From: a virus
Strand: one strand, 5' to 3'
Virus record (IMG/VR): IMGVR_UViG_3300032235_000843
Location: 1-51,919 of that record
Length of the DNA stretch: 51,919 nt
The translations under genes were made by a program, and so were the position numbers. Numbering within the stretch: position 1 is the stretch's first letter; each line of letters begins with the position of its first letter. The notes under the pieces were generated by a model. That model did no database searches. It was not told the DNA's origin and saw only the letters and a program-made list of their open reading frames with translations. Of this stretch, positions 16,330-21,001 are shown piece by piece.

Positions 16330-16491
16330 ATGCCTAAAAATCAACTGAATAAGGACGAATTGAAAGTTCGAGTTTTAAAACTAAAAGATAAACTTCATAA
16401 AGATCATATTAGACCTGAAATGGATATGAAAGGACTCGCCCATAAATATCTGAATGAAGTTCTTGACATAATAGATGAGTACAGATATTGA
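16330..16491 (+). CDS. Small basic helical protein (53 aa)
   Basis: ATG 16330 begins on the last bases of the terminator tail and the frame ends at TGA 16489-16491. The product is helical with Lys-rich heptads (LKVRVLKLKDKLHKDH). There is no clear Shine-Dalgarno. It overlaps the next gene by 17 bases. The function is unknown. Confidence 0.45.
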   Translation: MPKNQLNKDELKVRVLKLKDKLHKDHIRPEMDMKGLAHKYLNEVLDIIDEYRY

Positions 16492-16918
16492 CTATGAAAA
16501 TCCTTGGATTTATAATGGAGTGCCTTTTACTTCCTCTAATATTCAAGATAATTTTGGTTTTGTTTATCTTATCCAGAATAATCTTAATGGTAAAAAATAT
16601 ATTGGAAGAAAATATCTTTGGCAGTTTCGTACTCCAAAGGGTAAAAAAAGAAAAGTAAAATCTGAATCTGATTGGAAAAACTATTATGGGTCTTGTCCGG
16701 AACTTAAAGAAGACATTGACAAATTGGGCAGAGAAAATTTTAGTCGAACTATCTTATCATTACATAAAACAAAGGGCAAAACAAACTTTGAGGAGACCCG
16801 ACAACTCTTCTTCAACAATGTCCTCACCGAGTCCCTTGACAGTGGAGGACCAGCGTTCTACAATAGCAACATCCTCAACAGGTACTTCCGAAAGGACTAT
16901 TATGAACGCAACGACTGA
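16475..16918 (+). CDS. Putative GIY-YIG-type nuclease
   Basis: A 147-aa protein with a GIY-YIG-like core: FGFVYLIQNNLNGKKYIGRKYLW (roughly residues 28-50), with the second Tyr-Ile-Gly and the following Arg/Lys. The segment GRENFSRTIL downstream is typical of phage Seg-like or group I homing nucleases. It has no extra DNA-binding module and is shorter than T4 Seg proteins. It could be a free-standing homing nuclease or a repair enzyme. Confidence 0.65.
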   Translation: MSTDIDYENPWIYNGVPFTSSNIQDNFGFVYLIQNNLNGKKYIGRKYLWQFRTPKGKKRKVKSESDWKNYYGSCPELKEDIDKLGRENFSRTILSLHKTKGKTNFEETRQLFFNNVLTESLDSGGPAFYNSNILNRYFRKDYYERND

Positions 16919-17075
16919 AGACATTGTTGCTCATGTTAGGTCATGGTCTCTTGACCGTGCTGCTGATATGAGTGTTGATAAAGAGGATGCTCGTGCTATT
17001 CTTGCTGAGTTTTATGAATGGATTGAACCGGAAAGTGATGAACTTGAGATTGTTTCTCTAGAACCGGAAGGTTGA
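16902..17075 (+). CDS. Small acidic protein (57 aa)
   Basis: I place the start at ATG 16902, overlapping the nuclease gene by 17 bases. The product is acidic and helical (MNATTEDIVAHVRSW... EFYEWIEPESDELE). No family is recognised. A terminator follows. Confidence 0.5.
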   Translation: MNATTEDIVAHVRSWSLDRAADMSVDKEDARAILAEFYEWIEPESDELEIVSLEPEG

Positions 17076-17105
17076 CAAATCCTAAATATTAACTTATTAT
17101 GTAAA

Positions 17106-17132
17106 AACTCCCTGTTATGAGCAGGGTTTTTT
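17106..17132 (+). terminator. Rho-independent terminator
   Basis: Stem CCCTG / CAGGG with a 7-base loop and T6. Confidence 0.75.
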
Positions 17133-17230
17133 GTTATGAGACTTTGATTTCGATTTAGAGCCGTGGAAAGTGCCCTTTGAGAAAAGGGTGTACCCCCTTT
17201 CTATACGGATGTAGAATTCAATTAATTTTA

Positions 17231-17593
17231 ATGCTTTTTAAAACACTTTCAATTATTGCTATTGCCACTGTAGGACTAGCACCCCTTCAAGCAAAGGCAG
17301 CGAGCGGATGTTCCCTCGCATCACATTATGGAATTGGTGATGGATATCACGGGCAGACAACTGCTAATGGCGAAAGATACAATGCTCATGGTAAATCAGT
17401 AGCACATAAAACACTTCCTTTTGGAACTAGATTGCGTGTAACCAATCAATCAAATGGTAAGTCGGTAATTGTGCGTGTAAATGATCGCGGTCCTTATATC
17501 GCGGGTAGAGACCTTGACTTGTCTTACGGTGCATTCTCTACTATTGCTTCACCCGGTCAAGGTGTTGCTAGGATTTGTTACTCGCGTGTATGA
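17231..17593 (+). CDS. RlpA-like secreted double-psi beta-barrel protein
   Basis: A 120-aa protein beginning at ATG 17231 with a signal peptide (MLFKTLSIIAIATVGLAPL, cut after AKA). The mature part is one RlpA-type domain: ASHYGIGDGYHGQTTANGE, then LPFGTRLRV and VRVNDRGPYIAGRDLDLS. RlpA proteins act on peptidoglycan, and some are lytic transglycosylases cleaving glycan strands. The conserved Asp and His region is present. An upstream in-frame TTG would add a non-signal-like leader, so I reject it. The protein would act in the periplasm, possibly in lysis. Confidence 0.8.
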   Translation: MLFKTLSIIAIATVGLAPLQAKAASGCSLASHYGIGDGYHGQTTANGERYNAHGKSVAHKTLPFGTRLRVTNQSNGKSVIVRVNDRGPYIAGRDLDLSYGAFSTIASPGQGVARICYSRV

Positions 17594-17618
17594 CGATCTG
17601 AAAAATTGAATAATAAAT

Positions 17619-17649
17619 AGAGGAGGGCAGTTGCTACTCCTCTTTTTTT
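17619..17649 (+). terminator. Terminator with an overlapping late promoter
   Basis: Stem AGAGGAG / CTCCTCT, loop of 11 bases, T7. The octamer AATAAATA (17612-17619) sits directly before the stem, so late transcripts would start inside the hairpin and read into the 17650 gene. Confidence 0.7.
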
Positions 17650-18081
17650 ATGTTTAATTTTAATTTCGGAAAGAAGAGACCTGACAAGAAGCAGATCGTC
17701 CTTATAAGCGTCGTATTGGGTGTCATGGTAGCATCTCTCTCCCAATGCACTGGAGCGCCCCAGGAGCGCCTCTGGGACCTCCTAGACGAGGCACAGAGGG
17801 TTCTGTTCCCAGGCACCATAATCAACGATGTGCTGCTGCAGGACCCTGCTGTGGTGGGTAGGAGAGTTCATAGAGATGTGGATAGAGCGATTGCAGAATA
17901 TGAACGCTTGACAAGAGACTCAAATCCACCTAGAGTACCTTTGCCGCGGTTGATAGAGAAGGCTCTAGATACTTCTAAGTGTTATACTGAAGAGTGTAAG
18001 AAACTTGGAGGGGAAATGAGACTTTGCTCACCTTGGGTAGATGGATGCTTAGACAGTTCTACAACTGGACTGAGTAAGTAG
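17650..18081 (+). CDS. Membrane-anchored protein with C-terminal cysteine pairs
   Basis: A 143-aa protein: a basic N-terminus (FGKKRPDKK), one hydrophobic segment (IVLISVVLGVMVASLSQC, about 16-33), then a soluble part with four Cys near the end (KCYTEECKK ... LCSPWVDGC). The Cys after the hydrophobic segment is not in a good lipobox because Gln is at -1. The local base composition around 17740-17840 is clearly more GC-rich than in neighbouring genes. It follows the RlpA-like gene and could be envelope-associated; the function is unknown. Confidence 0.6.
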   Translation: MFNFNFGKKRPDKKQIVLISVVLGVMVASLSQCTGAPQERLWDLLDEAQRVLFPGTIINDVLLQDPAVVGRRVHRDVDRAIAEYERLTRDSNPPRVPLPRLIEKALDTSKCYTEECKKLGGEMRLCSPWVDGCLDSSTTGLSK

Positions 18082-18129
18082 ACAAAGATTTTGAATCAGT
18101 GTATTATTAAAAGGTGGTTGAGAGATCAC

Positions 18130-18158
18130 TTGACAATCAAATCTAAGTCTGGTATGAT
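18130..18158 (+). promoter_or_regulatory. Promoter P1 of the tRNA region with an inverted repeat
   Basis: TTGACA (18130-18135), 17 bases, TATGAT (18153-18158). ACAATCA (18133-18139) and TGATTGT (18155-18161) form an inverted repeat spanning the core promoter; the same arrangement recurs at 19078-19109. Confidence 0.75.
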
Positions 18159-18244
18159 TGTTTCATGAGCAACAGGGGTCCAAACCTTGTGTAAGTCTCT
18201 CCCCTCCTATGCCTCTCAACGATGCACAAACCTGGAGGTCTCTT

Positions 18245-18317
18245 GGGCAAGTAGCATAATGGATAATGCAGCATCCTTCTAAGATGTCGATTGGGGGTTC
18301 GAGTCCCTCCTTGCCTG
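18245..18317 (+). tRNA. tRNA-Arg (anticodon TCT)
   Basis: Acceptor GGGCAAG / CTTGCCT (first pair G-U), D-arm TAGCATAATGGATAATGCA, anticodon loop CTTCTAA, T-loop TTCGAGT and discriminator G. Confidence 0.9.
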
Positions 18318-18373
18318 TTGGAGTTTATCTCCATATATAAAAGTGATAGAGGGTAAGCCTCTGTTATATCCTT

Positions 18374-18472
18374 ATGAGGTATATTACGCTTACTCCATCA
18401 AAACGTAGGAAGTGCAATCCCTCTCGCTGGTTGCGACTAGATGAAGGAAAAGGTGATTCTGTCTGCACATAG
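18374..18472 (+). CDS. Possible very small basic ORF (32 aa)
   Basis: ATG 18374 to TAG 18470-18472 encodes a basic peptide (TPSKRRKCNPSRWLRL). No clear ribosome-binding site is seen. It is the only candidate in the otherwise empty stretch 18318-18491, which also holds a small hairpin AGAGG / CCTCT. Confidence 0.2.
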   Translation: MRYITLTPSKRRKCNPSRWLRLDEGKGDSVCT

Positions 18473-18491
18473 AGATCCCTCCTACCACCAA

Positions 18492-18514
18492 GTCGTTGTG
18501 GCGGAATTGGTAGA
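18492..18514 (+). pseudogene. Truncated 5' part of a tRNA-Leu
   Basis: GTGGCGGAATTGGTAGA (18498-18514) reads like the D-arm region of a bacterial tRNA-Leu, but the sequence then diverges into AT-rich DNA leading to the HNH gene. The complete tRNA-Leu at 18994 shares the pattern TGGnGGAA..GGTAGA. The fragment looks like what remains of a tRNA broken by insertion of the nuclease cassette. Confidence 0.5.
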
Positions 18515-18549
18515 TTTAATGTATAAATAATACAGCACGTCTACCAATT
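18505..18549 (+). promoter_or_regulatory. Start-blocking hairpin with late promoter in its loop
   Basis: AATTGGTAGA (18505-18514) and TCTACCAATT (18540-18549) are perfectly complementary. The 3' arm touches the ATG of the HNH gene. The late octamer TATAAATA (18522-18529) lies in the loop, so transcripts starting about 18535 lack the 5' arm and leave the start free. This matches the known control of T4 I-TevI. Confidence 0.7.
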
Positions 18550-18993
18550 ATGAGAAAAGATCTTGACGATAAGAAAGATTATATAGTAAACTCTCTTATG
18601 TCTGGTGTATCTCCAACTCAACTCTGTCTTGAATTGAATTGTAAAATAGATACACTTAGATCTAGATGGAGAAAGTGGATTCCTGACTATAAACCAGATA
18701 ATACCAAACATCTTGGTAGTTTTGGGGGTCAAAATAAATGGAACTCTCTTTCTGATTACTACAACTCTTCTAAAGAATCTTGTAAAAGAGATATCTTATA
18801 CCGATTGTTAGTAGAAGAACGAGGTAATATTTGTTCTGAATGTGGTATTTCTTCTACTTGGAATGGTAAACCTCTAAGGTTACAAGTCGATCACATTAAT
18901 GGCGAAAGATACGATAATCGTCCAGAAAATTTAAGATTGTTGTGTCCTAATTGTCATACACAAACAGACACATTCTCAAATAAAAAACGATAA
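18550..18993 (+). CDS. HNH endonuclease (probable homing nuclease)
   Basis: A 147-aa protein: an N-terminal helix-turn-helix-like region (SGVSPTQLCLELNCKIDTLRSRWRKW) for DNA recognition, then a C-terminal HNH domain with zinc-knuckle Cys (CSECG ... CPNCH) and the catalytic LQVDHINGERYDNRPENL. Free-standing nucleases of this kind cut a related locus and spread themselves by repair. The gene sits between a broken tRNA-Leu piece and an intact tRNA-Leu that starts directly after its stop codon. Confidence 0.88.
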   Translation: MRKDLDDKKDYIVNSLMSGVSPTQLCLELNCKIDTLRSRWRKWIPDYKPDNTKHLGSFGGQNKWNSLSDYYNSSKESCKRDILYRLLVEERGNICSECGISSTWNGKPLRLQVDHINGERYDNRPENLRLLCPNCHTQTDTFSNKKR

Positions 18994-19076
18994 GCTCTAG
19001 TGGTGGAACGGTAGACACAGCGGACTTAGAATCCGCCGCCTTAAAAAGCGTGGAAGTTCAAATCTTCTCTGGAGCA
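18994..19076 (+). tRNA. tRNA-Leu (anticodon TAG)
   Basis: Class II tRNA with acceptor GCTCTAG / CTGGAGC (one T-G pair), anticodon stem-loop GCGGA CTTAGAA TCCGC, a long variable arm and discriminator A. It begins at the base after the HNH stop codon. Confidence 0.9.
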
Positions 19077-19077
19077 C

Positions 19078-19106
19078 TTGACAATCAAACTTAAATAGTT
19101 TATGAT
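19078..19106 (+). promoter_or_regulatory. Promoter P2 of the tRNA region with an inverted repeat
   Basis: TTGACA (19078-19083), 17 bases, TATGAT (19101-19106). It shares CTTGACAATCAAA with P1. The inverted repeat GACAATCA / TGATTGTC (19080-19087 and 19103-19110) covers both hexamers. Confidence 0.75.
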
Positions 19107-19116
19107 TGTCTTATAA

Positions 19117-19187
19117 GCGGGTATGGTGTAGCGGTAACACGCCATCCTTCCAAGTTGGAATCACCGGTTCGAACCCGGTTACCCGCT
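19117..19187 (+). tRNA. tRNA-Gly (anticodon TCC)
   Basis: Acceptor GCGGGTA / TACCCGC, anticodon loop CTTCCAA, T-arm CCGG TTCGAAC CCGG. There is one T-T mismatch in the anticodon stem. Confidence 0.9.
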
Positions 19188-19189
19188 CT

Positions 19190-19206
19190 GAACCTTCGGG
19201 TTCTTT
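19190..19206 (+). terminator. Short UUCG hairpin after tRNA-Gly
   Basis: GAACC TTCG GGTTC with only TTT following. It could be a weak terminator or a processing/stability hairpin. Confidence 0.4.
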
Positions 19207-19232
19207 AAACACACAGACACACAAATAGAATT

Positions 19233-19442
19233 ATGACTATGACACCTTACGAACTTCGTTTCGAAATCTTTAAGCAAGCATATAATATGCTAAATGACCA
19301 GTTCAGTATTGAAATGGATACTGCTCGTTATTGGAATGCAAATTCTGCAAATACTGTGAAGATGGATTATCCAGAGTTTCCAACTCTACAAGATGTTCTT
19401 AAGCAAGCAGAAACGATTAATGATTTTGTAAGTTCTAAGTAA
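19233..19442 (+). CDS. Small helical protein (69 aa), function unknown
   Basis: It starts at ATG 19233 (MTMTPYELRFEIFKQAYNML) and is predominantly helical with a polar middle. I recall similar small proteins as conserved hypotheticals in T4-like phages, without known function. It lies between tRNA genes. Confidence 0.6.
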   Translation: MTMTPYELRFEIFKQAYNMLNDQFSIEMDTARYWNANSANTVKMDYPEFPTLQDVLKQAETINDFVSSK

Positions 19443-19450
19443 TAGAACAT

Positions 19451-19522
19451 TCCCCTGTGGCGCAGCGGTAGCGCGAGAAACTGTTAATTTCCAGGTCACA
19501 AGTTCGAATCTTGTCGGGGGAG
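19451..19522 (+). tRNA. tRNA-Asn (anticodon GTT)
   Basis: Acceptor TCCCCTG / CGGGGGA, D-arm GGCGCAGCGGTAGCGC, anticodon loop CTGTTAA, T-loop TTCGAAT, discriminator G. Confidence 0.92.
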
Positions 19523-19525
19523 CCT

Positions 19526-19597
19526 GGGCGATTGGCGCAGCGGTAGCGCAGCTGCTTTACACGCAGACGGTCATTGGTTCGAATCCGATATTGCCCA
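19526..19597 (+). tRNA. tRNA-Val (anticodon TAC)
   Basis: Acceptor GGGCGAT / ATTGCCC (one G-U pair), anticodon loop TTTACAC, T-loop TTCGAAT. Three bases separate it from tRNA-Asn. Confidence 0.92.
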
Positions 19598-19600
19598 CTT

Positions 19601-19608
19601 GATAAATA
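19601..19608 (+). promoter_or_regulatory. Late promoter GATAAATA
   Basis: Late-type octamer directly after tRNA-Val, 17 bases before ATG 19626. It rules out the in-frame TTG at 19599 as the start of the next gene. Confidence 0.6.
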
Positions 19609-19625
19609 CTTACAAAAAGAGTATA

Positions 19626-20060
19626 ATGGAAAAACTGTTTAAACTCTTAAGTGATGCTCAGTCATCACTTTTTGTTTTGTTTCATAAAACTTGGGCGTTT
19701 CATTGGAATGTTGTGGGGAGTGATTTTACTCAACTTCATCAACTCTTTGGTGGACAATATGAGACTATGTTTGAAGAAATTGACAGACTCTCAGAACACA
19801 TGCGTTATTTGAACGTAAAACCTCTCAGTTCTCTCTCCAGAATGCTTGAGGTAACTCAGATTAAAGAAGCAGCAAGTTCAACTGGAGCAAAAGAAATGCT
19901 TCAAGAACTTCTAGATAATAATACCAAGTTTTGTGAATTGATGATAGAGATTTCAGAGGAGTCTGAAAATCAAAAGTCATATGCTACAGCAAATTTAGTT
20001 CAAGATTTAATGGAATCCCACGGTAAATTTGTTTGGCAATTGAGAGCACACTTACAATGA
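19626..20060 (+). CDS. Dps-like ferritin-fold protein
   Basis: A 144-aa four-helix protein of the Dps/DNA-protection family, which oxidises and stores iron using H2O2 and protects DNA. The signature TWAFHWNVVGSDFTQLH (about 22-38) followed by YETMFEEIDRLSEH is clear. Compared with E. coli Dps from memory, H26, H38, D53 and E57 occupy ferroxidase positions, but the position of D67 is Gly (G42), so the intersubunit iron site may be weakened. No Lys-rich N-terminal tail for DNA binding is present. It may limit oxidative damage during infection of a photosynthetic host. Confidence 0.8.
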   Translation: MEKLFKLLSDAQSSLFVLFHKTWAFHWNVVGSDFTQLHQLFGGQYETMFEEIDRLSEHMRYLNVKPLSSLSRMLEVTQIKEAASSTGAKEMLQELLDNNTKFCELMIEISEESENQKSYATANLVQDLMESHGKFVWQLRAHLQ

Positions 20061-20075
20061 ATAGGATGAAGAATA

Positions 20076-20327
20076 ATGATTTCAATAAGATGCAAAGATT
20101 GCAATAAAGAAATAACAGGACACCCATCAAAAACAGTTACTTGTGGATGTCCAAATATGGCAACAATTCGTGGAGATAAGATTTCAGCACTTGACTTATC
20201 TCGTATTGTTATGCTAAACTCTTTAAAAGAAAATTCAAAAACAAACGTGTTAACCTCTCAAGATATTGCTTGGCAGGAAGCACGTAGACAACGTAAAGTT
20301 CGTCGTTTGGATTTTGAGATTCGCTAA
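20076..20327 (+). CDS. Small zinc-ribbon-like protein (83 aa)
   Basis: The N-terminus carries CKDC (C6, C9) and CGC (C23, C25), spaced as in a small zinc ribbon, followed by a helical basic C-terminus (WQEARRQRKVRRLDFEIR). It could bind nucleic acid. Similar proteins occur in T4-like phages as hypotheticals. Confidence 0.6.
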   Translation: MISIRCKDCNKEITGHPSKTVTCGCPNMATIRGDKISALDLSRIVMLNSLKENSKTNVLTSQDIAWQEARRQRKVRRLDFEIR

Positions 20328-20337
20328 ATCTCCTACT

Positions 20338-20423
20338 GGAAGCGTGGCCGAGTGGTTTATGGCAGTTGTCTTGAAAACAACCAACGTTAATAGCGTTCGT
20401 GGGTTCAAATCCTACCGCTTCCG
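20338..20423 (+). tRNA. tRNA-Ser (anticodon TGA)
   Basis: Class II tRNA with acceptor GGAAGCG / CGCTTCC, D-arm TGGCCGAGTGGTTTATGGCA, anticodon stem-loop GTTGT CTTGAAA ACAAC, long variable arm AACGTT..AGCGTT and discriminator G. Confidence 0.92.
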
Positions 20424-20485
20424 TTTTAAGTTAAGTTACAAATTTAACAATTTCTTCAATAGTGTTACGATATGAACACAAAAAG

Positions 20486-20513
20486 TTGACTGTGAAATAC
20501 CTGTGATTATTAT
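20486..20513 (+). promoter_or_regulatory. Early promoter upstream of the gnd operon
   Basis: TTGACT (20486-20491), 16 bases, TATTAT (20508-20513). It would serve a coupled run of small genes ending in gnd. Confidence 0.6.
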
Positions 20514-20538
20514 ATAGTAGTATCACGGGGACGAACCG

Positions 20539-20688
20539 ATGGATCAACACACCTACGATAATTGGGTGAAGATCAAAGCAACTTTTGAATCTTCTGGGAA
20601 CACAGATAATATGTTCTACAAAAGAGCAGTTGAAATCGTAAAAACCCGAAAAGATCCTCTTGCAAAATTTCTTGGCGATGAAAAATGA
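20539..20688 (+). CDS. Small protein (49 aa), function unknown
   Basis: ATG 20539 to TGA 20686-20688. The product is mixed-charge and helical (MDQHTYDNWVKIKATFESSG). Its stop overlaps the next start in an ATGA arrangement, which supports expression. Confidence 0.55.
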   Translation: MDQHTYDNWVKIKATFESSGNTDNMFYKRAVEIVKTRKDPLAKFLGDEK

Positions 20689-20888
20689 TGCACGAACAAG
20701 AAGAATTCATTACACGTTCTGAAGTTCAGGAGATGATTGATGCAGCAATACGACGACACAACCGTAATGCTTCTATCATTAGTATGTGCGTCGGTTGGGT
20801 GGTTCTTGCTTTATTTGCTGAGGGACTTTTAAGATTAGTTGGGGTTATTCCACCTTTACTCCCATTTCTCAAGATTACTTTGAACTAA
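20685..20888 (+). CDS. Small membrane protein (67 aa)
   Basis: An acidic then basic N-terminus (EEFITRSEVQEMIDAAIRRHNR) is followed by one or two hydrophobic segments (IISMCVGWVVLALFAEGLL, then VGVIPPLLPFL). It is coupled to both neighbours (ATGA and TAATG). The function is unknown. Confidence 0.55.
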   Translation: MMHEQEEFITRSEVQEMIDAAIRRHNRNASIISMCVGWVVLALFAEGLLRLVGVIPPLLPFLKITLN

Positions 20889-21001
20889 TGGCATCAATTA
20901 CAGAAGAAGATTTACAAAAATTAAACCAAAGAGTTCATCAACAAAAAATGGATGAACTCTTTGAAGAACCATCTACTTACGAGGATGAAGAAGATGATTA
21001 A
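20888..21001 (+). CDS. Small acidic protein (37 aa)
   Basis: ATG 20888 overlaps the previous stop (TAATG). The C-terminus is strongly acidic (EEPSTYEDEEDD). Part of the coupled gnd operon; function unknown. Confidence 0.45.
   Translation: MASITEEDLQKLNQRVHQQKMDELFEEPSTYEDEEDD

Follow-up and report, generated by a model that had tools for sequence, protein, structure and literature searches.

A tRNA-Leu-invading HNH homing element of a T4-like cyanophage, and a leader hairpin that may limit its nuclease to late RNA

Introduction

What does a hairpin do when it ends on the base before the start codon of a homing endonuclease gene and holds a late promoter motif in its loop, and how did it come to lie there? 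This question is raised by a locus within the tRNA cluster of a viral sequence of 51,919 nucleotides (IMG/VR record IMGVR_UViG_3300032235_000843), referred to below at its full length as the window. About 77% nucleotide identity links its nrdA-nrdB-primase region to Synechococcus phages, among them S-SM2 and Bellamy, and assigns the window to a T4-like cyanophage. As summarized in PMC2988022, control by a hairpin and a nearby promoter has been described for the homing enzymes I-TevI, I-TevII and I-TevIII of T4, for SegB in the T4 tRNA cluster and for MobE of phage Aeh1.

Results

Comparison with empty sites showed that the HNH gene lies in an element inserted into a tRNA gene. Positions 18,492–18,514 (plus strand) were identical to the start of the intact tRNA-Leu(UAG) at two such sites, L174 and L142. 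They are what remains of the resident tRNA-Leu(UAG), its 5′ end with acceptor strand and D-arm, and resemble the first 23 nt of a tRNA-Leu gene other than the one at 18,994. A pattern scan with this fragment returned about 80 contigs, and in nearly all of them it opens a tRNA-Leu(UAG) gene that is unbroken. Over the 200 bp as far as GGTAGA, the two empty sites were about 97% identical to the window, and over 110 bp downstream of the tRNA 96–97%; the window therefore carries an insert of 562 bp (18,515–19,076, plus strand) that replaces the final 59 nt of the resident tRNA. This insert contains a late promoter motif, an anti-D-arm, the HNH gene and a complete substitute tRNA-Leu(UAG) with the same anticodon as the target (18,994–19,076, plus strand; ARAGORN, and Rfam tRNA at 54.6 bits). 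The HNH stop codon ends at 18,993 and the tRNA begins on the next base; since the tRNA brought in is complete, the phage does not lose this anticodon from its tRNAs. The tRNA-Leu partner was the same in all close relatives checked. A first-pass annotation of this DNA had described the hairpin before the HNH gene in an incomplete context, missing both the origin of the 5′ arm in a broken tRNA-Leu gene and the replacement tRNA that the element carries.

A relative of the element, together with its own tRNA-Leu, was found inside another tRNA-Leu allele in L018–L022, where GCCCAAATGGTAAAATTAGTAG of the broken allele remains upstream and AGGTTCAAGTCCTCTTTTGGGCA downstream of the element. The same target allele was found unbroken in L119 and others, the remnant differing by small changes, and L023 (filled) and L181 (empty) form a third pair. 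Three pairs of filled and empty alleles thus mark a fixed site, their left junctions all falling at one D-loop position, behind GGTA or GGTAG(A). These alignments show a mobile unit with a fixed target in the tRNA-Leu D-loop, for which homing by double-strand-break repair is the probable route of insertion. No Rfam intron match pointing to a self-splicing intron around the HNH ORF was obtained in 17,000–21,000, and a reading as a group I intron or riboswitch was rejected for lack of any Rfam match.

The HNH homing endonuclease gene (18,550–18,993, plus strand; 147 aa) was intact, with the H..N..H residues and zinc cysteines present and matches above cut-off to Pfam HNH (E 8.5e-7) and HNH_3 (E 3.6e-7). 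HNH was the only domain of this homing-type ORF, and the GIY-YIG domain of SegB was absent. Among isolate phages no close copy of the protein was found, the best isolate HNH being 39% identical. T5 HegA was shown to be homologous over the whole length (34% identity over residues 1–145, E 9e-13). In an alignment (A2) of the window protein with L027, L041, L044, L048, L050, L061, L068, L075, L082, L084, L090 and L093, the C-terminal HNH half was conserved and the N-terminal half differed between Leu-type and Val-type elements, a pattern that looks as if DNA-binding domains choosing the tRNA target had been swapped.

The hairpin that ends at this gene has a 5′ arm, AATTGGTAGA, at 18,505–18,514 and a 3′ arm, TCTACCAATT, at 18,540–18,549, the base before the ATG at 18,550 (both plus strand). 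The 5′ arm was recognized from sequence and fold, and its origin in the target from the empty sites. The late promoter motif TATAAATA, an exact match conserved in relatives, lies in the loop (18,522–18,529, plus strand). Both the perfect 10-bp inverted repeat abutting the ATG and the exact motif in its loop had been noted before, and were confirmed to the base. The 3′ arm forms part of an element-borne anti-D-arm, CGTCTACCAATT (18,538–18,549, plus strand), which is the exact reverse complement (12/12) of the intact D-arm AATTGGTAGACG. RNA folding of the leader, including a G-U closing pair, gave an 11-bp stem plus an inner stem with a stability of -17.3 kcal/mol (z -4.6), equalled by none of 200 shuffles. 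Perfect short-loop inverted repeats of at least 10 bp numbered 14 in the window versus 2.8 in shuffles; only the one in the HNH leader contained TATAAATA in its loop, and none did so in 60 shuffles. An intrinsic terminator was looked for, and none was found on this strand. The exact AATTGGTAGA..TCTACCAATT arm pattern had 15 matches in viral contigs, all unrelated and none of them at this gene.

The motif NATAAATA has been reported as the late promoter motif of T4-like cyanophages (PMC2984593). In the window TATAAATA was mildly enriched (6 copies versus 3.95 expected), and all five plus-strand copies sit 28–41 nt upstream of an ORF start. From the copy in the hairpin loop an RNA start is predicted near 18,535, so placed that the late RNA would lack the 5′ arm. 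Predicted openness of the start region was 0.35 for read-through RNA versus 0.74 for late RNA, and the predicted fold gives a stable structure over the translation start. The leader GCACGTCTACCAATT holds no Shine-Dalgarno-like sequence, so that the hairpin would hide the start region and not a ribosome-binding site; sequestration of a Shine-Dalgarno sequence is not seen in the window, whereas Val-type relatives have GGAG in or beside the stem.

A possible source of early read-through RNA is the sigma-70-like promoter TTGACA-17-TATGAT upstream of tRNA-Arg (18,130–18,158, plus strand; 11/12 in a consensus scan), already pointed out in the first-pass annotation; it is a good match in sequence and not proof of function. 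This promoter and a near-identical sigma-70-like one at 19,078–19,106 in the same tRNA cluster share the form TTGACAATCAAA..TATGATTGTC; the second comes after tRNA-Leu whether the site is filled or empty. Just upstream of tRNA-Arg, 18,203–18,239 matched the Rfam abiF RNA (50.2 bits; gathering score 37), whose annotated copy in Synechococcus phage S-CREM1 likewise neighbours a tRNA. In the gap from tRNA-Arg to the tRNA-Leu site, an unannotated stretch (18,318–18,404) showed a significant fold (z -3.0) and no Rfam match, and is conserved in S-SRM01 and many metagenome contigs; a second conserved block (18,404–18,490) showed no significant fold. A SegE-type GIY-YIG ORF at 16,475–16,918 has ATAAATA 27 nt upstream, and a search for a similar hairpin before this gene gave no significant fold.

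The hairpin with its in-loop promoter was kept in every close relative possessing the promoter. The earlier proposal that read-through RNA would be less open at the start agreed with the predictions, accessibility being below that of the late RNA in 16 of 16 sequences, and the predicted openness of positions -12 to +6 dropped in every relative when the 5′ arm was present. In most relatives the native 5′ flank folded better than nearly all random flanks; L021 and L096 folded weakly. Core substitutions in the 3′ arm preserve pairing via G-U, but mismatches occur in the 5′ arms of L021 and L027, that of L021 being decayed, so that simple covariation is only moderate; gap placement in the MAFFT alignment moves the 5′ arm between classes. 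Older copies (L016, L017, L025–L028, L101) have lost the tRNA remnant except GGTAG, usually TTGGTAG. In L024, a cyanophage contig with a transaldolase-like gene, a stronger hairpin was kept at 2,950–2,992 without TATAAATA, and ATAAATA was absent from the whole 6.4 kb, so that hairpin and promoter are separable.

After reduction to below 90% core identity, the wider family comprised 62 distant HNH relatives. Of these HNH genes, 46 end at or inside the 5′ end of a tRNA gene, which begins within 70 nt of the HNH stop, compared with 28 of 139 control ORFs of the same neighbourhoods (p=4e-13). The stop codon mostly falls inside the tRNA, near its positions 8–10, 13–15 or 19–21. Val(UAC) and Leu(UAG) predominated among the adjoining tRNAs, and many others were seen once or twice. 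TAAATA was found in 33 of 59 HNH leaders (3.4 expected), and 20 of these 33 had a stem around it at p<=0.05, versus 4 of 68 non-HNH genes with TAAATA leaders (p=5e-9); the other 13 had no significant hairpin by the same test. These p-values overstate independence, since the relatives are akin to each other and every frame was assumed to start at its first ATG, which misplaces some leaders. The layout of a hairpin enclosing the promoter, first noted in the window, thus extends to the wider HNH family with unrelated stem sequences, and is not shared by the control genes.

An orphan D-arm fragment was detected by a D-arm motif test in 15 of 59 leaders (0.06 expected). Similarity of the leader to the 5′ end of the element's own tRNA was also tried as a general remnant test and was weak (combined p=0.025), because the remnant derives from the resident tRNA. 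The 3′ arm pairs with the leftover target D-arm in the window, L023, L240 and L262. An element-internal 5′ arm pairs significantly in L048, L055, L060, L061, L068, L075, L078, L084 and L092, and copies with internal arms often have a ribosome-binding site within the stem or next to it. No convincing empty sites were found for Val-type elements. That pairing persists while both the stem sequence and the source of the 5′ arm change makes the structure look selected, and is the strongest indication that the hairpin is of consequence.

Discussion

We consider a tRNA-Leu-invading HNH homing element with a late-only lock made of D-arm and anti-D-arm to be the best explanation of this locus, and a probable one. 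Insertion and replacement of the tRNA were demonstrated by comparing filled and empty sites. The free-standing element has inserted at the D-loop of a cyanophage tRNA-Leu(UAG), bringing a complete tRNA-Leu(UAG) and, in its leader, the reverse complement of the target D-arm. After insertion, the leftover D-arm and the anti-D-arm are predicted to pair as a hairpin ending at the ATG. Early read-through RNA from tRNA promoters, e.g., that at 18,130, would contain both arms and be poorly translated, and late RNA from the promoter in the loop, starting near 18,535, would lack the 5′ arm and be translatable, so that the nuclease would be made late. The RNA lock and the late start, and with them late-only expression of the HNH nuclease, are suggested by the T4 precedents and by the conservation of the layout throughout the family.

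The main rival is that the inverted repeat serves mainly as a DNA operator, the nuclease binding D-arm copies by its own late promoter and repressing itself. Such an operator is known for I-TevI, where it resembles the homing site and overlaps the late promoter according to PMC2988022, and D-arm-like sequence on both sides of the late promoter in the window would fit it, as would several Val-type arms (GTAGACC/GGTCTAC) that likewise resemble GGTAGA. Arm sequences nevertheless vary widely between subfamilies while pairing stays, and the core 3′-arm changes keep G-U pairing, which is useful to an RNA and not to DNA symmetry; we therefore regard an operator as the main function as rather unlikely, and it could coexist with an RNA lock.

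It is less likely still that the hairpin is a by-product, the anti-D-arm having arrived for other reasons and pairing with the tRNA leftover without effect. The 5′ arm is plainly a tRNA remnant, and decay as in L021 would be expected of such a by-product, but the arm has been retained in copies that lost the remainder of the remnant (L016, L017, L025–L028), and hairpins enclosing the motif recur throughout the family and are not a feature of control genes. The 12-nt anti-D-arm is also exactly complementary to the D-arms of intact resident tRNA-Leu(UAG), which would allow late mRNA to pair in trans with tRNA-Leu or its precursor and so control translation or tRNA processing. We find this highly improbable, as mature tRNAs have folded D-arms, the D-arm of the element's own tRNA is a different one (GGAACGGTAGACAC) and the match is missing in subfamilies with internal arms.

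The first-pass annotation had regarded the locus as the published I-TevI control on a different nuclease family. The control logic is indeed published, but its use on an HNH enzyme is not new, because I-TevIII and Aeh1 MobE are HNH enzymes (PMC2988022). As described there, I-TevI, I-TevII and I-TevIII resemble the proposed lock in that a hairpin covers the start only on upstream transcripts and a nearby promoter, a late promoter for I-TevI, yields open RNA. The T4 enzymes, however, are encoded in group I introns and their hairpin hides the Shine-Dalgarno sequence (PMC2988022), whereas the window element has neither intron nor Shine-Dalgarno sequence and its 5′ arm is target DNA. T4 SegB is likewise free-standing in a tRNA cluster, with a hairpin and a late promoter, and cleaves tRNA gene sequence; in contrast, it has the GIY-YIG fold and is located between tRNA genes, and the accessible text of these two sources reports no broken target tRNA with a carried substitute for it (PMC2988022, PMC13096335). 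A recent study showed that SegB of T4 and T6 amplifies tRNA loci against the defences of bacteria (PMC13096335), which makes tRNA-linked homing enzymes of current interest. MobE (Gibb and Edgell 2007, 2009, as cited in PMC2988022) is also a free-standing HNH enzyme that has a hairpin as well as a late promoter and lies inserted in a coding gene, but its target is nrdA, which it splits.

T5 HegA (F-TflIV) is a homologous HNH enzyme in a tRNA cluster as well. Its gene, unlike that of the window, comes after tRNA-Ile without running into a tRNA gene, and inspection by eye of 230 bases upstream revealed no leader with TATAAATA in a hairpin. Another free-standing homing enzyme of a cyanophage is F-CphI of S-PM2 at psbA (Zeng 2009, cited in PMC3037559); unlike the window element it targets psbA, and it is not known to carry tRNA cargo.

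Thus, neither the control principle nor its application to an HNH enzyme is new, both being known from the accounts cited above. As far as the literature shows, three things appear to be new: that the element inserts at tRNA D-arms and brings a full replacement tRNA, that the broken target would supply half of the lock, and the breadth of the family; earlier reports of them may exist in work on MobE, SegB or T5 HegA. We judge the chances to be evenly balanced that a widespread phage HNH family combines D-arm invasion of tRNA genes, resupply of a complete tRNA that may resist cutting and a late-only RNA lock. In several lineages of such a family half of the lock would be the broken target, so that the switch would assemble only on correct insertion.

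The usual explanations of phage tRNA clusters are codon usage and defence against immunity that cuts tRNAs. Some tRNAs of these clusters look like cargo, in that a selfish nuclease breaks a tRNA gene and the phage keeps that tRNA, which would help to explain the gain, loss and swapping of isoacceptors. The proposed lock would be a simple way for a mobile gene to make its own target a regulatory part.
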